Shown: positions 305-41,157 of the stretch, piece after piece
How the letters are laid out: each line of letters begins with the position of its first letter
Position numbering within the stretch: the stretch's first letter is position 1
NCBI GenBank assembly: GCA_014381945.1
Contig: JACNKQ010000075.1
Span: 110,630-151,855, forward strand
Origin: Actinomycetota bacterium
GTDB lineage: Bacteria > Actinomycetota > Acidimicrobiia > Acidimicrobiales > MedAcidi-G1
Direction of reading: 5' to 3'
Length of the DNA stretch: 41,226 nucleotides
Program-made: the position numbers and the translations under genes
Notes under the pieces: model-generated
Seen by the model: the letters and a program-made list of their open reading frames with translations, nothing else
What the model was told of the DNA's origin: nothing
Databases searched by the model: none

Positions 305-3157
305 TCACAGCACCGGCAGGAGGTCGTCGCCCATCTCTCCAGGCTGATCACCAACAGTCGAAAACGAACCCCTACCGGTCTGGCCATAGCCTCCGTGGCC
401 CCAGCAGGTCACGGTGGCGTCGTCCAGTTCGACACAGGTGTGGGCGTAGCCGGCGGCGACGCTGACAGCCCGACGCAGGGTGCCATCTGCATGTGTTCCA
501 AGGTCTACCGTCTCGAGTCCCCTACCCATCTCGCCGGGGTGGTCCCCCACCGGCTTCGTATGGCCGACGCCGAGTTGGCCCTTGTGGTTGCGACCCCAGC
601 ACAGGACAGAACCGGTGTCGTCGATTGCACAACTGTGTGAGCCACCCACGGCGACATCTACGGCCATGCGAATGCCGCCGTCGGCGTGGCTACCCAGATC
701 GACGGATCCCGGTCCCGCACCCATCTCGCCAGGATCGTCACCGATGTCGTCTGCGTGGCCCAGGCCGAGCTGTCCGTAGTTGTTGCGTCCCCAGCAGGTG
801 ACGGCACCGTCTTCGAAGCGGGCACAGGTGTGGTTGAGGCTCGACTCGACCGAAACGACCGGAGCCTGATCGGCCAGGTGGACAGAGTCGAGGACAGCGC
901 CCATTTCGCCTACTTCGTCGCCGATCGTCCTCGGCCCGCCGACGCCGATCTGTCCCCAACCGGAGTTGCCCCAGCAGACGACCCTGCCCATGTCGAGGAG
1001 AGCGCAGGTGTGGTAGTGGCCGGCCACGATCTGAATGGCTTCGAGCGGTTCACCGTCCGCCTCCCGTCCGAGGTCTATCGGAATCAGATCGAGACCGAGT
1101 TCTCCGGGCTGGTCACCAAGGGTGGCTCGGGCACCCGTTCCCAGTCGGCCCTGGCCTCCGTCACCCCAGCAGACCACCTGGCCGCCCTGCAGCAGTGCAC
1201 AGGTGTGGCTGTAGCCGGCAGTCACAGCGACGGCCGGCCGACCTCCCAGGTCGACGGTCCGGAGGGCATCGCCGATCTCCTCGGGCTGGTCGCCGATGTT
1301 GTTCCGATGGCCGAGGCCAAGCTGGCCCCTGTGGTTCAGGCCCCAGCAGGCAACCTCGCCCTCCTCCAGCACTGCGCATGAGTGCGCGAAGCCGTTTGCG
1401 ACCGCCATTGCGATGCGGGACCTTCCTTCGGGGTCCAGTCCGAGGTCGACGGCTGGGAGGTCGTCACCGACCTGGCCAGCGCGACCGCCGTGGCTCTTCC
1501 ATGTGCCGTTGGCGAGGGCGCCGTAGTAGCCCATGCCCCAGCAGCGGACCTTGCCCTTGTCCCGGTAACACGTCGTGTATCCATCGGCGGTGAGGTGGTC
1601 GACCGGTACGGGGCCGACCCCTTCGTCGACCTCTTCGAGTTCGACTGGTGCCGGATCCTGTGCTGGTGGACGCACACTCCGTCCGGTCCCCAGGTCCACC
1701 GGCAACAGGTTGTCACCCATGTGCCCTGGTGCGCGGCCCACCCACCCGGCGGACCCGAGCCCCGTCCGTCCGTTGCTGCCCCGTCCCCAGCACTTGAGGG
1801 TCGCGTCGTCGAGGGTTGCACACACGTGCTCGTCTCCGACCGAGACAGCGAGCGCGCTGCGACCGGTTCCGAGGTCTACTAGCGCACCCGTCTCTCCCGG
1901 TACGTCGCCGACGTTGTCACGGCGCTCGTTGCCGAGCATCCCGGAGTTGCCCACCCCCCAGCAGGTGAGTTCGCCGCCGTCGAGGACAACACAGGTCGCG
2001 CCGCCACCGACCGCTACGTCGATCGCCAGACGGGGTGTCCCGTCCGCGTCTGAACCCATGTCGACGGGCGTCAGTGCGTCTCCCATCTCGTCAGGATGGT
2101 CGCCGATGTAGAGGGTCTGGCGGCCGTTGCCGAGGAGCCCCTGTGTGCCCAGTCCCCAGCAGGTGACCTCACCGCCTTCAATGACGACGCAGGTCCGCCT
2201 CAGGCCTACGTCCATTGCGACCGCCCGGCGTCGGGTGCCGTCGGGGTTCGAACCGAGGTCCGCCAACACCAGGTCGTCGCCCATCTCCCCCGGCTCGTCA
2301 CCGATCAGTCGGTTGCGCCCGTTGCCGAGTTCGCCTTGACCACCGTTGCCCCAGCAGGCGACGGCTCCGTCGCTGATCAGGGCACACGAGTGGCGGTAAC
2401 CGGCGCTGACCGATGTCGCAAGGCGCGGTGTTCCATCCGGACTGGTTCCGAGATCGACAGGAACCAGGTCATCGCCCATCTGTCCGGCTGCCCTGCCGAC
2501 GTTCTGGTTGCTGCCGTTGCCAAGCTGGCCATGCCGTCCCTCGCCCCAGCAGAGGACCTCACCGCCCCGGGTCAGTGCACACGTGTGTCGGTCTCCGGCG
2601 CTGACCGATCCCGGGACCCGTGGCGTGCCGTCCGGACCTGCGCCGAGATCGACGGGGATCAGGGCATTGCCCAGTTCCTCGGGCTGGTCGCCGATGCGGC
2701 TCGGTCGACCGTTCCCCAACTGTCCGTACCCGCCCTCGCCGAAGCAGACGAGGTAGCCGTCGTCGAGGATCACGCAGGTGTGGTATCCGCCCGTGCTGAC
2801 CGCGTGGGCCCGACGGCGGGCTCCGGCATCATCGACACCGAGGTCGACCTGCGGAAGGCCATCGCCCATCTCGTCCGGGCCGTCACCCACGTCTACGGGT
2901 GAGCTGATGCCGAGCAGTCCATGCCCTCCCTTGCCCCAGCACTTCAGGTCACCGGTGTCGAGGATGGCGCAACTGTGTGCGCGTCCGGCACCGATGGATG
3001 GGCCATCAGGAACGACAACCCCGACCTGGTCGGGGGAATCCAGGGGGCTATGGCGGTAGTCCTGTGCGTCCGAGCCACAGGCTCCGGCGAGGGTCGCTAT
3101 GGCCAGCAGCAACGCGATCCTGCGAAGGCGGGGTGGGGTGGGGTAGGTGATCGTCAT
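305..3157 (-). CDS. Secreted lipoprotein with 14 RCC1 beta-propeller repeats
   Basis: The ATG at 3155-3157 is preceded by GAGGA at 8 nt. A longer frame reaches 3229 but has no such site. The product (950 aa) starts with basic residues, a hydrophobic stretch and the lipobox LAGAC (Cys27), so it should be lipid-anchored outside the cell. Fourteen RCC1-type repeats follow, each with a G-x-V-x-CWG-x-G-x-x-G-x-LG core and most with an extra loop containing EMG before the PVDLG strand. A linker near residues 489-519, rich in Pro and Glu, separates repeats 1-7 from 8-14. RCC1 folds as a seven-bladed propeller, so I infer two propellers. Each blade carries two cysteines 7-9 residues apart, which suggests one disulfide per blade. 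Ligand and role are unknown; bacterial RCC1 proteins are generally uncharacterised. Confidence 0.9.
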   Translation of the reverse strand: MTITYPTPPRLRRIALLLAIATLAGACGSDAQDYRHSPLDSPDQVGVVVPDGPSIGAGRAHSCAILDTGDLKCWGKGGHGLLGISSPVDVGDGPDEMGDGLPQVDLGVDDAGARRRAHAVSTGGYHTCVILDDGYLVCFGEGGYGQLGNGRPSRIGDQPEELGNALIPVDLGAGPDGTPRVPGSVSAGDRHTCALTRGGEVLCWGEGRHGQLGNGSNQNVGRAAGQMGDDLVPVDLGTSPDGTPRLATSVSAGYRHSCALISDGAVACWGNGGQGELGNGRNRLIGDEPGEMGDDLVLADLGSNPDGTRRRAVAMDVGLRRTCVVIEGGEVTCWGLGTQGLLGNGRQTLYIGDHPDEMGDALTPVDMGSDADGTPRLAIDVAVGGGATCVVLDGGELTCWGVGNSGMLGNERRDNVGDVPGETGALVDLGTGRSALAVSVGDEHVCATLDDATLKCWGRGSNGRTGLGSAGWVGRAPGHMGDNLLPVDLGTGRSVRPPAQDPAPVELEEVDEGVGPVPVDHLTADGYTTCYRDKGKVRCWGMGYYGALANGTWKSHGGRAGQVGDDLPAVDLGLDPEGRSRIAMAVANGFAHSCAVLEEGEVACWGLNHRGQLGLGHRNNIGDQPEEIGDALRTVDLGGRPAVAVTAGYSHTCALLQGGQVVCWGDGGQGRLGTGARATLGDQPGELGLDLIPIDLGREADGEPLEAIQIVAGHYHTCALLDMGRVVCWGNSGWGQIGVGGPRTIGDEVGEMGAVLDSVHLADQAPVVSVESSLNHTCARFEDGAVTCWGRNNYGQLGLGHADDIGDDPGEMGAGPGSVDLGSHADGGIRMAVDVAVGGSHSCAIDDTGSVLCWGRNHKGQLGVGHTKPVGDHPGEMGRGLETVDLGTHADGTLRRAVSVAAGYAHTCVELDDATVTCWGHGGYGQTGRGSFSTVGDQPGEMGDDLLPVL

Positions 3158-3424
3158 TTCCGGGTTCCTCGACTGGGGTGATTGCGTCCGTCGGGTACAT
3201 GACGATCCAATGGCCGTTGCTGGACACAAATCAACAGGTCATCCGACCCCTGGAGCCCGCCTCCGCCAGCCCGCCCATTGTGGCGCAAGGGCAGGCGGTC
3301 CCTGACGCCTCAACCGCTGCGCGTCGCCACCCCGCTGCCATGGAATCGCATCGGGTTGCAGGACCTCGGATTCGGGCCCAAGGTCCCCAGCGCTCGCCGG
3401 AGAACGAGCGTATGGTCGCCGGCA

Positions 3425-29343: not shown

Positions 29344-32300
29344 CTATCCACGGGTCAGCCCCACGAAGAAGGTGAGGAGAAATGCACCGAACTTCTGCGC
29401 CTCAGCCGGTGTGACCTGATAGCCGGTCGCCACCCGGTCCAGAACCTCTTGTCCATCGTCGTCCCAGGTGAACACGATCGACTCCGAGCCGCTGACATCA
29501 GGCGGATCCGTGAGTGGACTGACACTGTCGTATCCACCTTCACCCAACTGCGTGAGGAAGTCGACGACGTACACGCCCGTGGCCTGGAACTCGGAGATTG
29601 TCAGTTCCATGAATTCTGCAGCTGACGCAACCGATGCGAAATCTTCCGCTGTGTAGCCGGTTGAGACCACACCGGAAGCAGCCTCCGCAGCAGCAGCAGC
29701 CTCCGCAGCAGCAGCAGCAGCCTCCGCAGCAGCAGCAGCAGCCTCCGCAGTAGCCTCGGCCAGAGCCTGTTCGGCGGCAGCCTGGGCCGCCTCAGCATCA
29801 GCAACAGCCTGCGCATCAGCAGCAGCTTGCGCATCAGCAGCAGCCTGCAGAGCAGTTTGCGCATCAGCAGCAGCTTGCGCATCAGCCTCAGCCTGTCTGG
29901 TGATTATCTCAGCATCCAGAACAGCTTGCGCAGCAGCAGCAGCCTGCGCATCAGCCGCAGCCTGCAGATCAGCAGCAGCTTGCTCATCAGCAGCTTGCTG
30001 TTCGTCATCAATGATCCCGACGGGAATCGCCGCAGCACCGGCTAGGCCGGCATAGACCGCAAACGAGTCCAAGGTGGGGATCACATAGACCAGTTGTGCC
30101 TCGCCCCCACCTAGGTCGCCGTCATCCACGCCCGTGACGGTGACGGTCTGTTCGCTCAATTCGGTGCCCGGCTCAAAGACCAACTGTTCCGGTGTGACTG
30201 TCAACTCAGCGTCATCTGAAGTCGAGACATCAAGGGTCACCGAACTCAAGATCGACGAGTTGAGACGAACCGTGAACGAATCGGTTCCGCCAGCTTCCTG
30301 GACTCCCGTCGAGTCAGCAGACTCGACCACCACGATCTGGGCCATCGCACAACCGTTCGATGCAGGATCGAACCATTCGGAGGATCCAATCAGGTTTCCG
30401 CCGGACGGATCGGTCTCGGTGGACGAGCGTCGGTCGAAGCCGTGGATACGGAACTGGCCAGTCCAAGGAGTTGCCTGGACAGCCCCGTGTGTGTGGGCAG
30501 TGCGTGCGTTGTCCGCCAAGAAGCTGACCTCGGCCAGACCAGCACCTGTTTCCAACCGCCAAGCAAACTCGCCGTAGGGAAGGTTGGTGTCGATGTTCCA
30601 ATAGGTCAGGTCGGCAGTCTCGGGGGTATCACCGCACGCCGGGTTTGACACGAATGTCGCGTCCTCAGTGGAGTCGAGACCCCTTTCCAACCGGACGAGA
30701 CCAGTACTAATACTGTCGCTCGGCAGCCTGACCGCTACGAGCACATTGCCCTGCGAGTCGAGGAACATCGGTCCCACATGCTCAGCCGTATTGTTGCCCA
30801 GTCCGCGAAGCTGACCATCAACCAGTGGGTATCGGTCTGAGGGAAACAACGGTTCGTAACCATAGAGAACATTCAAGTCATCGTTCGTTGTCAGAATTCC
30901 CAATTCTTGCGAATCCCGGATATAGAAGGAATCCATCCCATCAATGTTGCGAGACAACATATACATGAACTCAGAATCAGGAGATTCCAACTCTTCCTCG
31001 GAGACACCTAGTACTGAGGCCGTATTCACATTTCTAACCGAATCGATGAAGCCCAGTATTCTTGCCTCAAACGCTTCAATATCGCTAAGCGCCGGGGTGC
31101 TCTGTTCGCATTCCTCAAGTTCTATTTGAGCGGGCCGATACGCAATATCGTATACGCCTTGGGCTATCTCGTCGAGCAGCCTCATTTCGTGATGGTTATC
31201 AAAGGAGAGATTGGCCAGGTCCGGCACGTTCTCCAGAAGTGCATCAATTTCGCTTTGACGTTGCTCCTGTTCTTCTTCACTGCCAACCGCGAGTCTCGGC
31301 AATGCGTTCACGAGTTCTGCGAAGTCGAAATCAGAAGAGACTCCACCGCCAGCCTCACCCAGGTCCATACCAATATGTCGAATCACGCTTCCTGTGCGCT
31401 CGTTCATATCCATTGCGATAGCGCACTGCATCGGCAACGTGAAGACTTGCAACATTTCAGTTGTCACGTCTTCGGAACTGAAACCCCGCTCTCGTGTGAA
31501 GATGACAGCTGCATCATCTGCGGAATTCACGCTGACCGCTCTTGCTCGATACTGGACGCCCAGCGTTGACGACGGGTCCGCTCCGAGAGGAACGCCCTCA
31601 AAGACTGTCAGCACATGCGAACCATCTTGACCGAAGTCGGTATCAGGCCTCCCGGTCGCCAAATAGCGAGAAACGAAACCGACGTTATGTCCATCGTCAA
31701 AACCTTGGGCATATCCCGCTACCAGGATTCGTCCGGAAGAATCAACAGCGACATCTTCTATCGTATTCTCAGCACCCGGAACCGGCGAGTCGATTCGAGA
31801 CCCAGCGGGTTCGAAGGAGTTGTCGACCGAACCATCGCTACCATAGAGACGAATCTCAAGAGAACCCTCGTCCGTCGCCTTTGCCGCAACTAATCCACCG
31901 TTACTGTGCGGTCTTGTGTACCTGTCTCCCGGATGTCCTTCCAGGGTCACCCATCCGAGTTCCTCATCGATCGCGCCTGTCTGCGCATCGATACGCTTGA
32001 ACAACGTCTTATAAGTATTCGACTCGCCATCACAGGCCCAACTATCTGTAATAAAGAAATAGTATTCGCCGTCGGAGGAAGGATGTATAGGTCCATTGCA
32101 CCAGAACTCGGATGACAACACCGTTGCAATGCCATTGTCGCCAAACTCGTCTACTCGGTTTCCCTCGGAATCGAGCTTGAGCACCACAAAGTCATTGCCC
32201 TCGGCTATACGGCCCCCGACGAGGAGATGTCCTTCGAGGTCGACGACCGGCTTTTCGACGCTGACCCAACCTTGCTCGCCAACTTCTTCGGCAACATTTA

Positions 32301-32616
32301 TTCTCGCGATTTCGGTTGCCGTGCCATCGCTTGAGAGCCGCTCGACAGCCCAGAACCAGTCCCTTTGCCCCCAGTCGTAAACACTGTCGACAGAGAATCC
32401 CTGACCCTGCTCGTCAAAGACATAATCGTCTTTATCTTTGGGTTCTACGAACCCTCCGATGCCGTAGGTGGTGTCGATTCGGATCGGCGAATCATCTGGT
32501 TCGAAGAACGCATGCCGGTCGCCTGCACCGTCACTGCCGCATCCTGAGGCAACGACAGCGAACGCGACCAAAGTCGCGACTGCTAACAGCACAGTTCGAT
32601 TCAAACGCGGATTCAT
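29344..32616 (-). CDS. Giant lipoprotein with delta-60 propeller, Calx-beta and Ala-rich helix
   Basis: ATG 32614-32616 follows GAGAGG at about 6 nt. The product (1090 aa) has a signal peptide ending in VASGC (Cys26). Residues 40-760 hold a propeller-like region with delta-60-type repeats (LDSEGNRVDEFGDNG; RYLATGRPDTDFGQDG), interrupted by a helical segment. A Calx-beta-like domain (about 765-869) is followed by an Ala/Gln/Asp-rich helix (873-980) and a conserved-looking C-terminal domain with FTWDDDG. Roles are unknown; delta-60 and Calx-beta domains occur in large cell-surface proteins. The stretch 30900-32400 is much richer in A+T and in rare codons than the rest of the window. The FN3 lipoprotein lies just downstream on the same strand. 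Confidence 0.85.
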   Translation of the reverse strand: MNPRLNRTVLLAVATLVAFAVVASGCGSDGAGDRHAFFEPDDSPIRIDTTYGIGGFVEPKDKDDYVFDEQGQGFSVDSVYDWGQRDWFWAVERLSSDGTATEIARINVAEEVGEQGWVSVEKPVVDLEGHLLVGGRIAEGNDFVVLKLDSEGNRVDEFGDNGIATVLSSEFWCNGPIHPSSDGEYYFFITDSWACDGESNTYKTLFKRIDAQTGAIDEELGWVTLEGHPGDRYTRPHSNGGLVAAKATDEGSLEIRLYGSDGSVDNSFEPAGSRIDSPVPGAENTIEDVAVDSSGRILVAGYAQGFDDGHNVGFVSRYLATGRPDTDFGQDGSHVLTVFEGVPLGADPSSTLGVQYRARAVSVNSADDAAVIFTRERGFSSEDVTTEMLQVFTLPMQCAIAMDMNERTGSVIRHIGMDLGEAGGGVSSDFDFAELVNALPRLAVGSEEEQEQRQSEIDALLENVPDLANLSFDNHHEMRLLDEIAQGVYDIAYRPAQIELEECEQSTPALSDIEAFEARILGFIDSVRNVNTASVLGVSEEELESPDSEFMYMLSRNIDGMDSFYIRDSQELGILTTNDDLNVLYGYEPLFPSDRYPLVDGQLRGLGNNTAEHVGPMFLDSQGNVLVAVRLPSDSISTGLVRLERGLDSTEDATFVSNPACGDTPETADLTYWNIDTNLPYGEFAWRLETGAGLAEVSFLADNARTAHTHGAVQATPWTGQFRIHGFDRRSSTETDPSGGNLIGSSEWFDPASNGCAMAQIVVVESADSTGVQEAGGTDSFTVRLNSSILSSVTLDVSTSDDAELTVTPEQLVFEPGTELSEQTVTVTGVDDGDLGGGEAQLVYVIPTLDSFAVYAGLAGAAAIPVGIIDDEQQAADEQAAADLQAAADAQAAAAAQAVLDAEIITRQAEADAQAAADAQTALQAAADAQAAADAQAVADAEAAQAAAEQALAEATAEAAAAAAEAAAAAAEAAAAAEAASGVVSTGYTAEDFASVASAAEFMELTISEFQATGVYVVDFLTQLGEGGYDSVSPLTDPPDVSGSESIVFTWDDDGQEVLDRVATGYQVTPAEAQKFGAFLLTFFVGLTRG
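29676..29996 (-). repeat. GCA/CAG-rich low-complexity repeat coding Ala-rich helix
   Basis: Imperfect repeats of GCAGCAGCAGCCTCC and GCATCAGCAGCAGC type encode runs such as AEAAAAAAEAA and QAAADAQAAADAQ within the delta-60 lipoprotein. The register is in-frame throughout. Length variation between strains would be expected here. Confidence 0.85.
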
Positions 32617-32749
32617 GAAATTCCTCTCCATAGCGCCTAAAGGACCGCCGGCGGGCCCGCTTGGAAGCAACCGTACTTCAACCTCGCTACGACGAACAGT
32701 CAGGAGCTGCCGCCAGGGCGAAGGCGTTCGGCAGTTCCGGCTGCCGGTC

Positions 32750-33787
32750 TCAGGAGAAGGCGGGGATGACTTCGTTGCAGAAGAGTTCCATGGAGCGCTT
32801 CTGTTCGGGCAGGCCGAGGCCGAGGCTGGCGTAGTAGATGAACTCGTCTACACCGAGCGCTTCGTAGCGGCGCAACTTTGCGATCACTTCGTCGGGGGTG
32901 CCGAACATGAGGTTCTCGCTCAACGTGGCCGGCTCGTAGTCGTCGCTGTTGGCGACCTGGTCGAGCGGAATGGCCCGCGGGAAGCCGTTCTCGACGTCTC
33001 CGAGGTTCTTGAACAGGTTCTCGAACTGGCTGAGCTGCCGTTGGGCGGCCTCGACGGGGACCATCCAGTCGTCGGCGGAGTCGTAGACGGCGGTGTGGCG
33101 CATGACGGCGAACGTGGGACGGTCGCAACCGGGGTTGGCTGCCACGGCGTCGTCGAGTTGCGACTTGTAGAGCTCCGCCTCGGCAAACGACCGTGCGAAG
33201 GGCCATGACAGGACGTTGCAGCCGTTCTTGACCGCGTAGTCGTACGTGATCGGCGACCGTGCCGCCACCCAGAACGGCGGATGCGGCTTCTGGACGGGCT
33301 TGGGCACCGACGTCGAGGTCGGAAACGACCAGAACTCGCCATCATGTGCGTAGTCGCCGGCCCAGAGGGCCTTGAGCACCGGCACCATCTCCTGCATGTA
33401 CCGCCAGGCGTCGGTCTGCTTGAGCCCGGGTGCCATGCGGTCGAACTCGCGTTGGTACGCCCCCGAACCGATGCCGAACTCGAGGCGACCGCCGCTGACC
33501 AGGTCGAGGAACGCAGCCTCGCTGGCAAGGTTGATCGGATGCCAATAGGCGGCGACTGCGACTGCCGTGCCGAGCCGGATGCGGTCGGTGTGGCCAGCCC
33601 ACCACGTCAGGATCTGGAACGGGTTCGGGGCGATGGTCATCTCGAGGGCATGGTGCTCGGCGGCCCATGCGATGGTGAACCCCCCGGCCTCCGCCATCTG
33701 GACCATCTCGAGCGTGTGGGCGGCAACCTCGTCCATGTCGACGTTGTCGTCCATGCGCTCGAGGTTGATCGCAAGCTGGAACTTCAT
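32750..33787 (-). CDS. LLM-class flavin-dependent oxidoreductase
   Basis: Bacterial-luciferase-like TIM-barrel enzyme (345 aa) using FMN or F420. Typical features are WAAEHHALE at the second strand, APNPFQILTWWAGHTDRIRLGTAV, GRLEFGIGSGAYQREF, and PPFWVAARSP. It should oxidise an unknown small substrate in the cytoplasm. ATG 33785-33787 has AGGAGT at 4 nt. It lies 133 bp upstream of the delta-60 lipoprotein and is divergent from the histidine kinase gene. Confidence 0.9.
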   Translation of the reverse strand: MKFQLAINLERMDDNVDMDEVAAHTLEMVQMAEAGGFTIAWAAEHHALEMTIAPNPFQILTWWAGHTDRIRLGTAVAVAAYWHPINLASEAAFLDLVSGGRLEFGIGSGAYQREFDRMAPGLKQTDAWRYMQEMVPVLKALWAGDYAHDGEFWSFPTSTSVPKPVQKPHPPFWVAARSPITYDYAVKNGCNVLSWPFARSFAEAELYKSQLDDAVAANPGCDRPTFAVMRHTAVYDSADDWMVPVEAAQRQLSQFENLFKNLGDVENGFPRAIPLDQVANSDDYEPATLSENLMFGTPDEVIAKLRRYEALGVDEFIYYASLGLGLPEQKRSMELFCNEVIPAFS

Positions 33788-33926: not shown

Positions 33927-34979
33927 ATGGGGCCAAACGACGGGAAGACCCAAGTGGAGTTCCACGCCGGAGTCACGGCGGAGGACCTCTGGCAGACCTC
34001 GCCGGATGCCCTGCTGGTAGTCGAAGCGGGCGGCGTCATCCGGGGCGCCAACCCCGCCGCCCACGCCCTGTTTCACTACGGGGCCGAAGAGCTCGTCGGG
34101 CGGTCGGTCGAGGACCTCGTCCCCGAGGCGGCCAGAGAACGCCACCACGTCCAGCGCAGGGAGTTCGAGAATGCACCCCACGCCCGGCCCATGGGTACAG
34201 GTCAGCGCCTCGAGGGCTGCACCCGGGACGGCGACGTCTTTCCGATCCACGTCAGCCTCGCCCCTGTCGGAAGCGGTTCGAAGCTGACGATCGCCGCCGT
34301 ACGCGACATGACAGCCTGGATGGACGCCGAACAGTCGCTGGCCACCATGCGCCGCCGCAGGGACCTGGCGGAGGATCACGAGCGCATCGCCAGGCAACTT
34401 CACGACACCGTCATCCAGGAACTGTTCGCAGCCGGAATGGCCCTTCAGGCGATCCAGGCCATGAGCGATTCTGAGCCGGCAGTGCGCATCGCTGGGATCG
34501 TCGAGGGTCTCGACGCCACCTCCAGGACGATCCGCTCGGTCATCTTCGACCTGAGTTCGCCCATCCACAGCGAACACGGCCTACGCAGCAGGGCCACCGG
34601 GCTCGTCGGCGAGTTGGCCGACCTGCTCGGCTTCGAGCCGCACTGTCAGTTCGCAGGCCCCCTGGACACGGCCGTTCCCGACTCCCTCGTCGAGGATGCC
34701 CTCGCCGTGCTGCGTGAGGCCCTCACCAACGTCGCCCGCCATGCCGGGGCGACTACCGTGGACATCCGCGTCGAGGTGGCCGACGAACTGTCGGTCGAGG
34801 TGATCGACAACGGCAGCGGGCTCCCGGCCGGGAGCACCCGCCACAGCGGTCTCGCCAACCTGGCCACACGTGCGCTACAGCGGCAGGGACGTTTCAACGC
34901 CTACACGGCCCCGACCGGTGGCACGGCCCTCGAATGGATCGTTCCGGTCGTAGCCGACCCGGAACCGGAGGGCTCCTGA
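33927..34979 (+). CDS. Sensor histidine kinase, PAS-HisKA_3-HATPase (NarL/DevS type)
   Basis: The product (350 aa) is cytoplasmic: no membrane segment is visible. Residues 17-130 form one PAS domain (DALLVVEAGGVIRGANPAA; FPIHVSLAP). A HisKA_3 dimerisation helix follows with His159 in ERIARQLHDTVIQEL, then the ATPase with N-box REALTNVARHA, DNGSGLP and SGLANLATRA. It lacks the heme-binding GAF domains of mycobacterial DevS/DosT, so its signal is open: a PAS ligand, redox state or light. The neighbouring response regulator, converging with a 3-bp gap between stop codons, is the obvious partner. Confidence 0.9.
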   Translation: MGPNDGKTQVEFHAGVTAEDLWQTSPDALLVVEAGGVIRGANPAAHALFHYGAEELVGRSVEDLVPEAARERHHVQRREFENAPHARPMGTGQRLEGCTRDGDVFPIHVSLAPVGSGSKLTIAAVRDMTAWMDAEQSLATMRRRRDLAEDHERIARQLHDTVIQELFAAGMALQAIQAMSDSEPAVRIAGIVEGLDATSRTIRSVIFDLSSPIHSEHGLRSRATGLVGELADLLGFEPHCQFAGPLDTAVPDSLVEDALAVLREALTNVARHAGATTVDIRVEVADELSVEVIDNGSGLPAGSTRHSGLANLATRALQRQGRFNAYTAPTGGTALEWIVPVVADPEPEGS

Positions 34980-34982
34980 CGT

Positions 34983-35627
34983 TCAGCCGTTTCGCCTCTC
35001 GTCGAGCCGGGCGGCAAACGCGGCAGCCTCGGTCCGTCGCTGCATTCCCAGCCTGCGCAACAGGTTCGTGACGTAGTTCTTGATGGTCTTCTCGGCCAGG
35101 AACATCTGCTCGGCGATCTCACGGTTGGAGAGACCCTCCCCTATCAGGTCGAATACCCGTCGCTCCTGTTCCGGGAGCTCCCCGACCGTGGCCTCGCCGG
35201 ACTCGCGCAGCCGCCGGAGGGCAAGTCGTACCGTCGCCCGGTCGAGGAGCTGTCGTCCGGATGCCACGTGGCGGATCGCCTCAAGCAACTCACCTCCGAC
35301 CGCCTTTTTCAGAACATAGCCGGCAGCGCCGGCCAGGCTTGCCTCGACCAGCGCCTGGTCGTCCTCAAACGAGGTGAGCATCAGGCACCGCACATCCGGG
35401 TAGGCGGATCGGATGTCGCGGCAGACCTCGACCCCGGACCCCTCTCCGAGTCGGACATCGAGCACCGCCACGTCGGGTGACACCTCTTCGACTACCTCAA
35501 GGGTCCGCTGGGCGGTCGCAGCCTGACCGACGACCATCAGGTCGGGTTCGGCGCCGATGACCGCCACCAGGCCCTGCCGGACGATCTCGTGGTCGTCGAG
35601 AATGAACACCCGGATGCTGTCAGCCAT
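34983..35627 (-). CDS. DosR/DevR-like response regulator (NarL family)
   Basis: The product (214 aa) has a receiver domain with acidic pair D11-D12, phospho-acceptor Asp57 in VAVLDVRL, Thr/Ser in MLTSF and Lys in YVLKKAV. A LuxR-type helix-turn-helix fills residues 150-210: LSNREIAEQMFLAEKTIKNYV. From memory it closely resembles mycobacterial DosR, including LDVRL, the LTS-F/Y motif, and the recognition helix with the K..KN residues that contact the GGGAC half-sites. The start is ATG 35625-35627, six bases after TAGACC. It is downstream of, and on the same strand as, the AioA-like operon. I infer that it binds the palindromes at 39088 and 39117. Confidence 0.92.
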   Translation of the reverse strand: MADSIRVFILDDHEIVRQGLVAVIGAEPDLMVVGQAATAQRTLEVVEEVSPDVAVLDVRLGEGSGVEVCRDIRSAYPDVRCLMLTSFEDDQALVEASLAGAAGYVLKKAVGGELLEAIRHVASGRQLLDRATVRLALRRLRESGEATVGELPEQERRVFDLIGEGLSNREIAEQMFLAEKTIKNYVTNLLRRLGMQRRTEAAAFAARLDERRNG

Positions 35628-35664: not shown

Positions 35665-35691
35665 GGTGAACACGGGTTCCAGGGGTTCACC
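35665..35691. other. Inverted repeat between the AioA-like operon and the regulator
   Basis: GGTGAAC at 35665-35671 pairs with GTTCACC at 35685-35691, with a 13-nt loop. It overlaps the stop codon of the 92-aa membrane protein and lies 26 bp before the regulator's -10 box. No U-run follows on either strand, so it could be a weak terminator or an attenuating hairpin. Confidence 0.4.
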
Positions 35692-35965
35692 CACCACGGC
35701 GTTCCCTGCGTGCCTCGTGGATGCCGTTCCCTGCGACCCCACCGACGAGGGCTGCCATCCAGAATGCGACCAGCACACCGACCGCTGCCGAGGACTCCCA
35801 GTCGTGTCCCGGGGCGAGGAGTCCGTACACCAGGCCGATCCCGACAGCCACGACCACGAAGCCGGCGAGTGCCGAGATCACCACCGTCCGGACCAGAGCG
35901 GACTCATCTTCGTCAAGGAACCTCGATTCGCTTCGGCTACTGGTCATGGTCTGTTGCATGGTCAT
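35687..35965 (-). CDS. Small two-helix membrane protein downstream of AioA-like gene
   Basis: The product (92 aa) has a hydrophilic, acidic N-terminus of about 25 residues, then two hydrophobic helices (VVISALAGFVVVAVGIGLVYGLL; VGVLVAFWMAALVGGVAGN) and a basic end (HEARRERRGG). I do not recognise the family. ATG 35963-35965 has GGAGGT about 10 nt upstream and overlaps the AioA-like reading frame by 29 bp; a later ATG at 35947 is possible. The overlap shows it is co-transcribed with the oxidoreductase and suggests a membrane or assembly role for that enzyme, which is inference. Confidence 0.7.
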   Translation of the reverse strand: MTMQQTMTSSRSESRFLDEDESALVRTVVISALAGFVVVAVGIGLVYGLLAPGHDWESSAAVGVLVAFWMAALVGGVAGNGIHEARRERRGG

Positions 35966-38456
35966 GGTCTGTCACACCTCCCGGTGCTCGGTTTCGACTG
36001 GCGAACGACATCCCCGCAACGGCTCCGGATACGCCCAGGCGCCGTAGACGCCCCCGCCCCAACTTGAACGGATAGCGAAGGCTCAACGGCTGGAGGCTCG
36101 TATCGGCTGGGGTCACGTTGTTGGCCGCCGAGCCGGGAAACAGGAAATAGGTGTAGGTGACGCCCCGAGGCACGATGTCGGTCGGATACACGACCGCCGT
36201 GAACCCTCCGGGACCTGTGCCACCGATCTGGTCGAGCACGTCATCGCACTCGACAGAGACGAGGTCGCCAGCCTCGAGTCCCCAGTCCAGCGCATCAGCC
36301 GGGTTCACCTCCAACGGGTTCATCGGCCAGCGCTCGGCCGCAAGGGGACGGCGGCTGAAGTCGGACAGGTTGTTCCAGAGGGCATTGACCCGTCCATTGA
36401 GAACCCAGACCTCTCCCTTGTCCGTACGTGGGGACAGAACCTCGTTTCGGTCCCGTACACGACTCCAGTCGGGCATCACGAAGTTCGCCTTTCCGGACCC
36501 GCTCTTGAAGCGAAGGTCCTCGTGGAGCCGCACGGTTTCGATGAGCTCACCGCCCTCGATCCGGAGTGGTGCCTGCAGACCTGTCGTGCCCAGGTCGCCC
36601 AGGAAGTCATGGGCCCGACGCCCCTGCGCCTGCGCCAACTCGACAAGAGCCGAGTAGTCCTTGCGGCTGCCGCTGGATCGCTTCGCCGATTCCTCGAACA
36701 CGGCGTTGCTGTCCGCCCAGTCGAACCCGTCGAAGCCCATCCGTTGACCGACCTCGGCAAAAATCTGCCAGTCGGGTCGAGACTCACCGGGGGCGTCCAT
36801 GAAGCCCTGATAGAGCCGCAGGCGACGTTCGGCGTTCGCCCGGGTGAAGTCCTCCTCACCCCAGGTGGCCGCCGGGAGGACGATGTCAGCGAACGCGGTG
36901 CTCTCGTTGGCGTAGATCTCCTGATGTACGAGCACCATGCCGCCGGCGTCCATACGGGCCGTCAACTGCGCCAGAGCTGTCGCCGGGTCCGTCGAGGTGA
37001 CCTGAGGACCCATGTGCGTCAACTCGTGGACGCGCCGTCGCAGGTTGCCGGTACCGGCCATGGCCGAGATCCAGTTGGTTCCGACCACCCACCGGAAGCG
37101 CGTATTGCCCTCCACCAACCAGCGCTCGGTGTCCATCTCCACCGGGTGCCCGTCGACTGAGTGCGGCGACTTGTCAAGGGGATAGGAAGCCGCCTTCTGC
37201 CCACCCCTCTGGTGCCCACCCATGCGGGACGTCGCCCGTCCCTCACGGCCGGATGCGCCGAGGACTATCCCCAGGTTCGCTATGGCAGCGGTGTTTTCGT
37301 AGTTGTGGGTCCAGTAGACGCCCTTTTCGAACAGCACCGATGTGAGCGGCTGCGGTCCCGCCCCTCCGCTGAGCAGTTCGGCTGCCTGCCGGATCTTCGA
37401 GGCCGGCACCCCGGACACCTTCTCGGCGCCCTCGGGCGTGAAGTCGGCATCGCTGCGCAGGTACCCGAGGAGCTCATCTCGCGTCCTGCCGTATTCGACC
37501 CGGCGCCACTTGGACTCGGCGTCGAGTTCGGCCCGTGTCGCCAGAGACTCCACGAACTCCCGGTCCTCCCATCCGTTTTCCAATATGAGCAGGACCAGGG
37601 CGTTGTAGAGGCAGGTGTCGGTTCCGGGACGCAACTGGAGGTGGAGACCTCCCCCCCGTTCGGCATAGTCCGCAGTGAAGGTGCGGCGCGGGTCGACATA
37701 GACGATCTTGGCGCCTCCAGCCACCTGCCAGTCCGTGAACCGAACCGACTTGGTCTCATAGGGGTCGGATCCGGCGATGAACAGGACCTCTGCGGCACGG
37801 TCGTCGACGAACGCTGCGGAGAAGGCATCGATCCCCGCATCGCTGAGACCCGGAACGTCGTCGCCCTCGGCCGGGGCATGGTGCGGCGAGTAGTTGGGGG
37901 TTCCGATGCTCGCCAGGGCCAGTTTCGTTGCGGCATAGGTGTTTTCGAGAAACTCGTACGAGTAGCACTTCATGCCCCAGGCGAGCTCGCCGTAGCGCTC
38001 GATGGTGGTGAGTGAGAGTCGGGCGACGAGATCCAGCGCTGTGTCCCATGGGATCGGCACCAGATTGCCGTTCACCCGGAGTTGCGGGGTCAACAGACGG
38101 TCTGCAGTCGGACCATCGACTCTGAAGAGCTTCTGTGCCAAAGCCCCACCGCGCACCGAGTGCGAACCGGCGACGTTGACGACATCCGCATCAGGGTCGG
38201 GCAGGACGACACAGTTCTGACGCTCGCCTCCGACTTCGACGACCGTATGCATGTTCTCCGAGATCCACCCACCTGCAAGTGGCCCGAGCGGGAGGTCGCG
38301 CCCCAGGGCGTTCTCGGCTGCGGTCATGCCTCCGCTGGTTCCGAGGGGCCACGTGTAGACCCGGTAACCGCAGGCAACCGGGCAGTACTCACAACAGGTG
38401 GTGTGCTCGACCGCTCCGACCGGAGGGATCGGGACAGTCGTCGTGGGGGTCGTCAT
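35937..38456 (-). CDS. aioA: AioA-family molybdopterin oxidoreductase (arsenite oxidase-like large subunit)
   Basis: Molybdenum enzyme of the DMSO reductase superfamily (839 aa). C22-x2-C25-x3-C29 followed by GYRVYTWP matches the N-terminal iron-sulfur motif of AioA; Ser100 in SHSVRGG stands where the fourth Cys would be, as in AioA's 3Fe-4S site. Further AioA-like blocks are ENALGRDLP, EKGVYWTHNYEN, SRMGGHQRGG and the C-terminal WPMNPLEVNPADA. By eye alignment to the Alcaligenes faecalis enzyme, arsenite-pocket residues H195, R419 and H423 correspond to H192, R411 and H415; E203 aligns with D200. No Tat signal is present, so it is probably exported with its Rieske partner, encoded 11 bp upstream. 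Arsenite, iodate (IdrA is in the same clade) or another oxyanion is possible. ATG has GAGAGG at 7 nt. Confidence 0.85.
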   Translation of the reverse strand: MTTPTTTVPIPPVGAVEHTTCCEYCPVACGYRVYTWPLGTSGGMTAAENALGRDLPLGPLAGGWISENMHTVVEVGGERQNCVVLPDPDADVVNVAGSHSVRGGALAQKLFRVDGPTADRLLTPQLRVNGNLVPIPWDTALDLVARLSLTTIERYGELAWGMKCYSYEFLENTYAATKLALASIGTPNYSPHHAPAEGDDVPGLSDAGIDAFSAAFVDDRAAEVLFIAGSDPYETKSVRFTDWQVAGGAKIVYVDPRRTFTADYAERGGGLHLQLRPGTDTCLYNALVLLILENGWEDREFVESLATRAELDAESKWRRVEYGRTRDELLGYLRSDADFTPEGAEKVSGVPASKIRQAAELLSGGAGPQPLTSVLFEKGVYWTHNYENTAAIANLGIVLGASGREGRATSRMGGHQRGGQKAASYPLDKSPHSVDGHPVEMDTERWLVEGNTRFRWVVGTNWISAMAGTGNLRRRVHELTHMGPQVTSTDPATALAQLTARMDAGGMVLVHQEIYANESTAFADIVLPAATWGEEDFTRANAERRLRLYQGFMDAPGESRPDWQIFAEVGQRMGFDGFDWADSNAVFEESAKRSSGSRKDYSALVELAQAQGRRAHDFLGDLGTTGLQAPLRIEGGELIETVRLHEDLRFKSGSGKANFVMPDWSRVRDRNEVLSPRTDKGEVWVLNGRVNALWNNLSDFSRRPLAAERWPMNPLEVNPADALDWGLEAGDLVSVECDDVLDQIGGTGPGGFTAVVYPTDIVPRGVTYTYFLFPGSAANNVTPADTSLQPLSLRYPFKLGRGRLRRLGVSGAVAGMSFASRNRAPGGVTDHDHATDHDQ

Positions 38457-38467
38457 GGTGGAACCTC

Positions 38468-39019
38468 TCAGGAGCTCTGGAGCAGTTCGACGCCGACGCC
38501 CTGAAGGTTGTCGGCGTACCCGTAGACATGGCGCCTTAGGCCGGTGGCGACGATCTCGTCGCCGTCGAGCCTCAGAAGGACCCTCGGCAACCTCTGTGTG
38601 GCCTGTCCGATCGCCGGCTGTCCGTCGTGGGCCAGATCGAACGACGTGAAATGGCAGGGACAGGGCCCGAGGACGCCCTCGTCACTTTGAAACTCGGTGA
38701 CCGGGCACCCCATATGGGTGCAAAGACTCGAAAAGGCCACGAGGTCTTCTTCGGGTCCGATGCCGTGCTCGGCCGGCATGCCCAGCCTTGCAAGGACGTT
38801 GGGTTGCCCGGGGGCGGGATACTCGAAGGTAGATGGTGTTCCGATCTCCAACTCCAGGTAGCTGCCGACGACGACCTCCGGGTATTGCAGGACAAGCGCA
38901 GTGACCTCACCGTCTTCGTCCCTGTCCCAGGACAGGCCGACCGGCAGGATCACACCTGCCGCAGCCGCAGCGCCACCTGCCGCACCCAGGAAAACGAACT
39001 CACGACGTGTCAGGGACAT
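38468..39019 (-). CDS. aioB: AioB-like Rieske iron-sulfur subunit with Tat signal
   Basis: The product (183 aa) starts with a twin-arginine signal (LTRREFVFLG then an Ala-rich hydrophobic core), so the folded complex is sent across the membrane. The 2Fe-2S site is CTHMGC and, after 15 residues, CPCH; the second Cys of each motif forms the usual disulfide. The tail QATQRLPRVLLRLDGDEIVATG and YGYADN is characteristic of AioB rather than of bc1 Rieske proteins. It receives electrons from the molybdenum subunit and passes them to a cytochrome or cupredoxin. ATG 39017-39019 follows GAAGG at 4 nt. First gene of the operon, divergent from the cupredoxin. Confidence 0.88.
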   Translation of the reverse strand: MSLTRREFVFLGAAGGAAAAAGVILPVGLSWDRDEDGEVTALVLQYPEVVVGSYLELEIGTPSTFEYPAPGQPNVLARLGMPAEHGIGPEEDLVAFSSLCTHMGCPVTEFQSDEGVLGPCPCHFTSFDLAHDGQPAIGQATQRLPRVLLRLDGDEIVATGLRRHVYGYADNLQGVGVELLQSS

Positions 39020-39087: not shown

Positions 39088-39101
39088 GGGCCTTAGGTCC
39101 C
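39088..39101. promoter_or_regulatory. DosR-type box 1 (operon-proximal)
   Basis: GGGCCTTAGGTCCC matches the mycobacterial DosR consensus core GGGACTWWAGTCCC at 11 of 14 positions and is nearly palindromic. It faces the -10 box of the Rieske gene across exactly 23 bp, covering the position of a -35 element. The centre lies 29 bp, about three helical turns, from box 2. Confidence 0.7.
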
Positions 39102-39116
39102 GTTGTGCACGGATCG

Positions 39117-39130
39117 GGGACCAAGGTCCC
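39117..39130. promoter_or_regulatory. DosR-type box 2 (cupredoxin-proximal)
   Basis: GGGACCAAGGTCCC has perfect inverted half-sites and matches the DosR core at 12 of 14 positions, with W allowed in the centre. It faces the TACGCT -10 box of the cupredoxin gene across exactly 23 bp, placing its centre near -43 for a leaderless start. This is the usual location of an activator box overlapping -35. Confidence 0.75.
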
Positions 39131-39166: not shown

Positions 39167-39613
39167 ATGGGTAACCAAAATCGCGCAGCACAACGTCGTC
39201 GGGCCCGACATGGCAGCAGCCCGTTTGACTGGATGTTCGCCGCCGGAACCGGGGTGGTCGCGTTCGGCACGGTTCTGGTGGTGGGTCTGGCGATCCTCGT
39301 GTTCCTCAAAGCCGCTGGAACGGACGGTTCGAACGAACCCGGCCCCTTGACCGAGGGTGCGATCGTCGCCACCGAGTTCCGCTTCACGCCGGCGAGGGTC
39401 GAGTCCGGGACCGAGGTCGAGCTGGTCCTGCGCAACGAGGGTGCCGTCTACCACGACCTGGTCATCTCAGGCGTCGATGGCGTGCACCTCAAGGTCCTCC
39501 CCGGCGAGGAGGACCTTGTCGAGGTCACTCTCGAACCGGGCCGCTACACGTTCTACTGCACGATCCCGGGGCATCGGGACTCAGGAATGTCCGGCGAACT
39601 GGTGGTCGGGTGA
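39167..39613 (+). CDS. Membrane-anchored cupredoxin (type I copper protein)
   Basis: The product (148 aa) has a basic N-terminus and one hydrophobic helix at about residues 25-48 (GVVAFGTVLVVGLAILVFL), which anchors it with the copper domain outside. The plastocyanin-like domain supplies the four type I ligands: His in VYHDLVI, then Cys, His and Met in FYCTIPGHRDSGM. Divergent and apparently co-regulated with the AioB/AioA-like genes, it is a good candidate electron carrier between that complex and a terminal oxidase. Azurin or cytochrome c has this role for arsenite oxidases. Confidence 0.88.
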   Translation: MGNQNRAAQRRRARHGSSPFDWMFAAGTGVVAFGTVLVVGLAILVFLKAAGTDGSNEPGPLTEGAIVATEFRFTPARVESGTEVELVLRNEGAVYHDLVISGVDGVHLKVLPGEEDLVEVTLEPGRYTFYCTIPGHRDSGMSGELVVG

Positions 39614-39683: not shown

Positions 39684-40154
39684 ATGAGACTGCGACGACG
39701 CCCTACGGACATCGAGCCACCTGAGTTCTCCACCGTGCACAGGCCGCGCGTGCTCGTCGAGGAACAGGACGGCGCCATCCGGTCCTCGTATGTGAACCTG
39801 CTCCGCGATGCCGGGTTCGAGGCGGTCGGCTGCGGGGGACCGGAGGACCAGGGGAGCGCCCGGTGCCCGCTGGTGATGGGCCAGGGATGCGACGCTGCCG
39901 AACGGGCCGACGTGATCTTCTTCTCGTTCCGCCTGGCAGACGAACGCAACCGGGACATCCTCAAGGCACTGAAGCGGCTGAACCCGAAGACACCGATCGT
40001 GGTCGAGTTGGCGAAGCCCCAGTCCTTCCGCTACCAGGATGTCCTGCGTGGCGTCCACCTCGCCTACGCACCGGTCACCGGCCATTCGCTCACCAAGGCG
40101 ATCCTCGACGCCTGGGAGGCGCCGAACCCGATTCTCGAGTCGCTACGCAAGTGA
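39684..40154 (+). CDS. Receiver-like protein without phospho-acceptor, with Cys motif
   Basis: The product (156 aa) folds by pattern as a CheY-like domain: RVLVEEQD strand with acidic residues, a central hydrophobic strand ADVIFFSFRL where the phospho-Asp should stand but is replaced (Phe/Ser), TPIVVEL, and a final helix. The conserved Lys is also missing. Between the first two strands lies C-x11-C-x7-C (GCGGP, RCPL, QGCD), which could bind a metal or be redox-active. I believe similar Cys-Pro proteins occur in other actinobacteria. The start is uncertain: ATG 39684 or GTG 39735. It is on the same strand as the cupredoxin, 70 bp downstream, with a possible terminator between. Confidence 0.7.
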   Translation: MRLRRRPTDIEPPEFSTVHRPRVLVEEQDGAIRSSYVNLLRDAGFEAVGCGGPEDQGSARCPLVMGQGCDAAERADVIFFSFRLADERNRDILKALKRLNPKTPIVVELAKPQSFRYQDVLRGVHLAYAPVTGHSLTKAILDAWEAPNPILESLRK

Positions 40155-40479: not shown

Positions 40480-40992
40480 TCAGGCCAAGGCCGTGTAGAC
40501 GAGCACGGAGACAAGGCCGTAGAGGGCATGGCCTACGACGATCCCCATCGGGGTCATGGCGCCCCATGCCCGTCCGAAGAAGCCCGGAGCCGTGATCAAC
40601 AGCACGCCACCCTCGTCCGTGACCGTGTCCCGGCCGGAGCGAATCCGGAGCCGGGGATGGATCCTGCCCATCATCGGAAGCACTACGGCACCGACCACCG
40701 CTCCGTGGATTGCGCCGATAGCGAGCCCTGCCGACCAGGTGTCGATGTCGAGTGCTGCGTACCGGAGCGCGTAGATCGCCCCGAACGCCGCAGTGCCCAT
40801 CATCAGGTAGTGGCCGAGCAGGCCGATCTGAACCGCCCGTTGCCGGTCGCCGGTGAACATCGAACCCAGAACCAGCGGCATCGCCGGCATCCGGGTCATC
40901 CCCGCCATCCGGGCCATGGCCATCATCGACGACATGGCGACGGTCGCCACGAAGCCGCTGACCAGGGCCCCTCCAAGATCGAACTCAACCAT
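40480..40992 (-). CDS. Methionine-rich integral membrane protein (DUF6789-like)
   Basis: The product (170 aa) has about four to five hydrophobic helices. The first is unusually rich in Met (VAMSSMMAMARMAGMTRMPAM), followed by LGSMFTGDRQ, GHYLMMGTAAFG, AIHGAVVGAVVLPMMGRIHPR and a final HALYGL helix. Met and His at helix ends could bind copper. I think it matches a family of unknown function seen near respiratory genes (DUF6789-like), with low certainty. ATG 40990-40992 has a strong AGGAGG 6 nt upstream. Its closeness to the cupredoxin suggests a copper or membrane-redox link, which is inference. Confidence 0.75.
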   Translation of the reverse strand: MVEFDLGGALVSGFVATVAMSSMMAMARMAGMTRMPAMPLVLGSMFTGDRQRAVQIGLLGHYLMMGTAAFGAIYALRYAALDIDTWSAGLAIGAIHGAVVGAVVLPMMGRIHPRLRIRSGRDTVTDEGGVLLITAPGFFGRAWGAMTPMGIVVGHALYGLVSVLVYTALA

Positions 40993-41157
40993 GGTGATCC
41001 TCCTGTTGCGGCAATCGAATGTGTCTGTGGGGCCGCAGTTGCGAATGGAACCCCTGTCACGTGCCGCGCATTCCGACAATCGATCGGGAAACGGCGCCTA
41101 CGCGATCCGGGAATACGGGCGGCGCCCCGCGGGTTCCCCACGGTGTGCCCATGTCGC

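Follow-up and report, generated by a model that had tools for sequence, protein, structure and literature searches.

The window analyzed here, a stretch of 41,226 nucleotides from a genome of the Acidimicrobiales, rather probably encodes a DosR system in which the sensor has been swapped for another, probably still heme-based one, and whose regulon seems to reach into copper-based and anaerobic respiration. The domain make-up and kinship of the proteins, the boxes, the synteny and the fact that the assembly gives no second matching kinase or regulator can be read directly from the DNA (Table 1). The original prediction for this DNA had placed a DevS-like kinase and a DosR-like regulator correctly, both open frames holding the domains named there, and had overlooked two DosR-type boxes (39088, 39117) as well as the gene run aioB-aioA-small gene-regulator leading away from them.

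Table 1. Features of the window (positions count from its first letter)
Feature	Position	Strand	Description
DevS-like histidine kinase	33927-34979	+	350 aa; PAS + HisKA_3 + HATPase_c
Kinase His73 codon	34143-34145	+	aligns with proximal heme ligand His156 of FG214; 29/29 PAS-bearing rows
Kinase Met89 codon	34191-34193	+	aligns with Met172 of FG214 (alternative distal ligand); 29/29 PAS-bearing rows
DosR/DevR-like NarL-family response regulator	34983-35627	-	214 aa; 3c3w 6e-64; Response_reg + GerE
Small protein between aioA and regulator	35687-35965	-	a single, strongly hydrophobic stretch (19-residue mean 2.75); shared with G244
aioA-like molybdopterin enzyme large subunit	35937-38456	-	TIGR02693 419.8 bits (cut-off 359.05)
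aioB-like Rieske small subunit	38468-39019	-	TIGR02694 111.6 bits (cut-off 95.65)
DosR-type palindrome GGGCCTTAGGTCCC	39088-39101	.	between aioB and divergent cupredoxin
DosR-type palindrome GGGACCAAGGTCCC	39117-39130	.	29 bp from first palindrome
Cupredoxin, divergent from aioB	39167-39613	+	PF13473, PF00127
REC-like small protein beside cupredoxin	39684-40154	+	receiver likeness by eye only; conserved in G244

Results

A DevS-type kinase with a PAS domain faces a DosR-like regulator

Pfam searches (E <= 0.001) divided the kinase into a PAS domain (residues 23-120), HisKA_3 (152-210, with His159 at the phospho-acceptor position) and HATPase_c (260-336), and returned no GAF domain; we take the PAS domain to extend to about residue 130 and HATPase_c to about 340. 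DevS/DosT sensor kinases are defined by tandem GAF domains with heme in GAF-A, as stated in passages of PMC8063818; the window kinase lacks this feature and has the DevS-type transmitter of HisKA_3 and HATPase. In phmmer comparisons with PDB sequences its ATPase domain was nearest to DevS/DosS and DosT (8sbm, 7e-22; 3zxo, 1e-21) and its PAS domain, taken as a single sequence, nearest to FixL. Hydropathy revealed no membrane stretch (highest 19-residue Kyte-Doolittle mean 1.16), which together with the Pfam result bears out the original view that a single soluble PAS domain replaces the paired GAF domains. The kinase gene is adjoined by a gene for a luciferase-like (LLM) oxidoreductase (32753-33787, minus strand), where the DNA is 92% identical in G244, a genome of the same genus.

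DevR/DosR (3c3w) was the first PDB match of the regulator and VraR the next (1e-36), making DevR its nearest relative among the solved NarL-family regulators. In an alignment with 3c3w, judged by eye, the DD, D, T and K positions of the receiver, including its acidic residues, and the recognition helix (AEKTxKNYV, with the KxxKN motif) are retained, as had been proposed, and some positions in this helix are those which we take to contact DNA in DevR/DosR. The promoter leading to the regulator gene contains DosR-type boxes; the kinase promoter has none with 0 or 1 mismatch, in line with the earlier observation. Kinase and regulator genes converge, with their 3' ends three bases apart, and therefore are not co-transcribed.

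A second kinase with heme-binding GAF domains elsewhere in the genome, which the original prediction had named as the finding that would speak against it, was searched for and set aside, because PF07730 gave a single HisKA_3 match, the window kinase, in the 2.49-Mb assembly; as this assembly is 97.5% complete, a HisKA_3 gene may have been missed. Searching the genome with the regulator itself yielded one full-length match and four partial ones (best 1.9e-11). Among 20 extended kinase loci 16 have a regulator match, and in five of these 16 (L048, L050, L060, L061 and L064, each belonging to the order of the window) the pair is abutting and convergent; in two further loci the regulator converges with the kinase across a gap.

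Within the class, regulator matches (E <= 1e-45) occur in 157 of 296 genomes and kinase matches (E <= 1e-40) in 53. Thirty-five of 55 kinase match rows start at or before query residue 24 and therefore include the PAS domain; such PAS-bearing relatives are found, for example, in two assemblies, one of Acidimicrobiaceae and one of Acidimicrobiales (L087, L091). GAF-type kinases, with domains assigned by eye, share a stretch with regulators in G083, G015 and G223. A change of the input domain, PAS for GAF-GAF, is thus supported, and GAF-type kinases beside such regulators also exist in the class. Automatic kinase labels (36 PAS, 22 queried as GAF, 59 other) were set aside because some kinases were misplaced. 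According to a transmitter tree of 55 rows, in which PAS and GAF labels were partly set by eye, the PAS-type kinases may have arisen once or more often (8 changes; bootstrap not settled).

The PAS domain resembles heme-PAS sensors

Eleven PAS sequences out of a 21-row alignment (A1) were combined into a profile, which matched 53 distinct PDB sequences at E <= 0.001. The top 14 matches (8.6e-26 to 1.2e-16) are all heme-PAS domains and belong to four proteins: FG214, two rhizobial FixL and DosP/EcDOS. The fifteenth, at 1.7e-11, follows about five orders of magnitude behind. First of all is 10jx, entitled as the heme binding PAS domain from the one component transcription factor FG214. According to passages of a preprint (PMC13060918), heme in FG214 is ligated by His156 on the proximal and His175 on the distal side, where Met172 can take its place, as in a dithionite-soaked crystal.

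His73 and Met89 of the window kinase occupy the positions of His156 and Met172, and their spacing of 16 residues is constant in all 29 PAS-bearing rows, which were drawn from the best kinase matches, and so chosen in part for PAS likeness, with L035, a row lacking PAS, left out. The main distal ligand His175 aligns with Gly92. In the model of the kinase (mean pLDDT 79.2) His73 lies within helix 67-82 and Met89 in the loop after it. Judged by sequence, the proximal histidine of FixL, which we take to be His200 in BjFixL, is present as His73; distal Arg220 is replaced by Gln93 in the window kinase and mostly by Leu in its homologues, and a HisKA_3 transmitter and a DosR-like partner stand in place of the FixL-type transmitter and FixJ. 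Like the His/Met heme-PAS proteins DosP and FG214, the kinase has both His and Met at the ligand positions, placed as in FG214; the Met of DosP presumably lies two residues further on.

DosR-type boxes in kinase loci and regulator-bearing genomes

The core pattern GGGMCNWWNGKCCC, which was narrowed after the window sites had been seen, occurs three times in the window (0.075 in shuffles), 13 times in 20 kinase loci covering 322 kb (0.43 in shuffles, largest 2 among 40) and four times in 10 aio loci (0.375 in shuffles, largest 2). Genome-wide the excess is not clear in the window's genome (16 sites against 11 for the control, several of the 16 falling inside predicted frames), and there is none in G244 (10 against 10). 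Summed over 20 genomes of the order that hold a regulator match, the core counts 196 against 98 for the reversed-pattern control (Wilcoxon p 0.002), and over 20 genomes without such a match 43 against 48 (p 0.56; Fisher p 0.001 between the sets), where the positives were hand-picked from the best-scoring of the order, passing over some that outscore the last two, the negatives were the first listed, neither set is a random draw, and the positive genomes are larger on the whole. Only the tighter core separates from background: the loose pattern GGGNCNNNNGNCCC is below control in the window's genome (183 against 236), and GGGACNNNNGTCCC, allowing up to two mismatches, turns up less often in the window (45) than in shuffles (67.9). 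The still tighter GGGMCHWAGGTCCC, chosen post hoc, fits 6 of the 16 own-genome sites. A chance origin of the boxes was set aside on the basis of the shuffles and the reversed-pattern control. Boxes in the promoter leading to the regulator, together with the excess in the tested regulator-bearing genomes, support a conserved DosR-type output.

Near boxes in the kinase loci lie genes for Usp, CBS, pyridoxamine-oxidase and phosphoribosyltransferase proteins, which we take to resemble DosR-regulon genes. Multicopper-oxidase genes directly follow DosR-type boxes in three other kinase loci (L057:10044, L062:11640 and L065:9950). A further palindrome of the window, GGGCCCAAGGTCCC at 3374, is located upstream of a large lipoprotein-like frame (305-3229, minus strand) that is similar at its start to a second such frame (29344-32670, minus strand).

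An aioBA-like pair between the boxes and the regulator

The large subunit scores above the TIGR02693 cut-off with a TIGR02694 partner beside it, and its best PDB matches are AioA/AroA. Three of four compared substrate residues, presumably His195, Glu203, Arg419 and His423 in A. faecalis numbering, are kept in an alignment by eye, Glu203 being replaced by Asp. The start of aioB was chosen by us at the Tat-like MSLTRREF. The small protein has no match in Pfam, and the REC-like protein none in Pfam or NCBIfam. A protein encoded further on (40480-41079, minus strand) matched DUF6789 below threshold, with 21.1 bits against a cut-off of 27.1. The run aioB-aioA-small gene-regulator would form one transcript.

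G244 has the kinase (88% identical), the regulator (95%), the small protein, the cupredoxin and the REC-like protein, and keeps both boxes at 29-bp spacing, the second with one mismatch; it lacks aioBA. The DNA alignment of the two genomes breaks off at 35936 and restarts at 39182, so that aioBA lies in the gap, flanked by the box promoter and the small gene. Blastn gave no alignment over the boxes themselves, and likeness there consists of motif and spacing. Class-wide, AioA matches (E <= 1e-60) were obtained in 11 of 296 genomes. Since the window's own match is the only one in its order, aioBA was more likely gained in the window lineage than lost from G244. Six other aioB loci were inspected for an upstream box: G086 has an exact one, between aioB and a cupredoxin gene, G226 and G257 have one with a single mismatch, and G156, G094 and G241 have none.

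Boxes at cox, cupredoxin lipoprotein and nosZ genes

Boxes of the same core are found in the window's genome on the 5' flank of a gene for a cupredoxin lipoprotein, of coxII-coxI-coxIII and of nosZ, the surrounding frames, as in other loci examined, being crude calls made without a gene finder. The G244 counterpart of the cupredoxin lipoprotein (60% identical) likewise has a box at its 5' end; this box and that of cox run into the outermost 5' part of the crude frames, which we take to start further in. Of nine cox loci obtained in a search of eight genomes, five were scanned; none of these has an exact site and three have one single-mismatch site each. The locus of G220, with a 56% identical coxI homologue, lacks a box. 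The 39-41% CoxI matches in seven of the eight genomes probably represent another oxidase.

NosZ of the window's genome belongs to clade II according to TIGR04246, and its gene is followed by one without a Pfam match and by nosD. Across the class, 23 of 296 genomes gave NosZ matches (E <= 1e-60), with no other in the order. In a set of 21 nosZ loci, which omits the own locus and one without upstream sequence, an exact GGGMC-N4-GKCCC lies within 600 bp upstream of nosZ in eight (0.36 in shuffles, at most 3 in any of 200; 2 with the pattern reversed); the narrower core is present in five. None of the 22 nosZ bodies scanned contains a box. Directly before nosZ in G207 and G255 (identified by Pfam) and in G007 and G133 (by likeness) stands an Rrf2-type gene, with the box ahead of it; the box of G013 falls inside an Rrf2 frame and may be due to chance. 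Box-bearing G209 has no regulator match at the cut-off. The combination of an Rrf2-family gene immediately before nosZ with a DosR-type box ahead of that gene in L178 and L180 (Rrf2 identified by Pfam) and in L189 and L190 points to a possible two-layer control.

Discussion

Taking into account both the kinship revealed by the profile and the conservation of His73 and Met89, a His/Met heme-PAS is the simplest reading of the sensor domain. This bears on the original proposal of a conserved output combined with a changed input. The conserved output holds, and so does the exchange of the input domain; a changed input signal is not supported, because the PAS groups with heme-PAS sensors and two of the ligand residues of FG214 are present. 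The signal could therefore still be O2, NO or redox, and the idea that heme sensing was lost is probably wrong.

Several other explanations have to be weighed. The PAS domain might hold another cofactor or small molecule such as FAD or a metabolite, or none, with the redox state or a metabolite driving the DosR output. Comparison of folds does not separate heme-PAS from other PAS domains (Z 15.7 for FG214, 15.8 for 3lyx, 14.9 for NifL), the FAD-PAS of NifL and others thus fitting the model about as well as FG214, and the distal Arg of FixL is lost. However, the lead of the heme-PAS entries over the remaining PDB PAS sequences and the invariance of both candidate ligands in the rows examined argue for heme, and we consider such a different cofactor possible though rather unlikely. 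Even less credit, almost none, is given to an NreB-like [4Fe-4S] oxygen sensor with a NarL-type partner. The two share a broad layout of PAS domain, kinase, NarL-type regulator and respiratory targets, but NreB requires four cysteines and there is a single one in the PAS domain of the window kinase and of its G244 counterpart; an NreB-type Fe-S PAS was therefore set aside.

Doubts may also be raised about partners and targets. Convergent genes that are not co-transcribed could belong to neighbors which do not interact, yet the genome searches gave neither a second HisKA_3 kinase nor a second full-length DosR-like regulator, and the regulator recurs near the kinase in most of the kinase loci, so that a non-partner arrangement appears very improbable. 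Somewhat more weight is due to the idea that other factors govern aioBA, cox and nosZ, the boxes being a remnant or serving the cupredoxin alone: G244 keeps boxes and cupredoxin without aioBA, and an exact box is missing at five of six other aioB promoters examined. Against this, the boxes sit between the divergent starts of aioB and the cupredoxin gene, G086 likewise has an exact box between aioB and a cupredoxin gene, and boxes at nosZ recur in the class; we regard this explanation as unlikely.

We therefore return to the predicted His/Met heme-PAS kinase acting on a DosR output. In the model that we infer, which extends to the heme and its ligand, the direction of the response, phosphotransfer, binding of the regulator to DNA, transcription as an operon and the substrate of the AioBA-like enzyme, heme b would be bound by His73, and Met89 would be the distal ligand that can be exchanged. 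The PAS domain would be altered when O2 is lost, when NO or CO binds, or when the heme is reduced, upon which the DevS-type transmitter would autophosphorylate at His159 and then phosphorylate the convergently encoded regulator. The latter would bind the paired GGGMC-N4-GKCCC boxes and activate aioBA together with the regulator gene itself in one direction and the cupredoxin gene in the other, and would act at the further boxes of cox, the cupredoxin lipoprotein gene and nosZ.

It is tempting to speculate, if only tentatively, that DosR systems throughout the class, many of them with heme-PAS kinases, control copper-based and anaerobic respiration as an O2/NO switch that also covers clade II N2O reductase, and that newly acquired respiratory sets (aioBA, a second cox, nosZ) join this circuit via DosR boxes. 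If true, two textbook heme oxygen-sensing systems would be joined here, a FixL/DosP-like sensor on a DosR output, which suggests that a non-GAF sensor can drive DosR output. A compact motif, His and then Met 16 residues on, would predict heme across one family of PAS kinases; DosR would become a candidate controller of N2O reduction.

Comparison with known systems

Arsenite oxidase genes are controlled by AioX-AioS-AioR with RpoN, by the ArsR-type AioF and by others, as described in passages of PMC7533571. The window shares the target enzyme family with AioXSR/AioF control and has DosR-type boxes at aioBA instead. The literature searched contained no paper combining arsenite oxidase with DosR, or DosR with Acidimicrobi; nosZ and DosR both occur in PMC7272022, unlinked in passages of that text, and a published link between them may exist. 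That DosR is tied to anaerobic respiration is in itself no new idea, because the influence of DevR on the nar genes and narK2 is already dealt with in passages of a review (PMC8139620).

With M. tuberculosis DevS/DosT-DevR (DosR) the system shares the kinase ATPase domain, the regulator, its recognition helix and the type of box, and related loci of the kinase hold neighbors resembling the DosR regulon (Usp, CBS). By contrast, one PAS takes the place of the tandem GAF, the kinase gene is convergent to that of the regulator, and the boxes precede cox, cupredoxin, nosZ and aioBA genes. OsdR of Streptomyces coelicolor is a DosR orthologue beyond mycobacteria with a matching palindrome, AGGGCCGATCGGCCCT, and OsdK, unlike the window kinase, is encoded in an osdR-osdK operon and retains 15 of 18 oxygen-sensing residues of DosT and 12 of 18 of DevS, according to passages of PMC5069765. 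The exact core GGGCCGATCGGCCC of the OsdR consensus is found twice in the window's genome (G000 C58:52540 and C74:43, both near contig ends).

Staphylococcal NreB-NreC likewise presumably pairs a PAS kinase with a NarL-type regulator. Passages of PMC8139620 assign a [4Fe-4S] cluster to NreB, to be set against the one Cys of the window PAS. Rhizobial FixL-FixJ differs in the distal Arg, the transmitter and the partner, and has its PAS in the same sequence group as that of the window, with a shared proximal-His position. FG214 of Fimbriimonas ginsengisoli (10jx/10jy) is, in the passages of the preprint cited above, a one-component HTH-PAS protein, and its main distal His175 is missing from the window kinase; it is the top match of the PAS profile, and the positions of its His156 and Met172 are shared.
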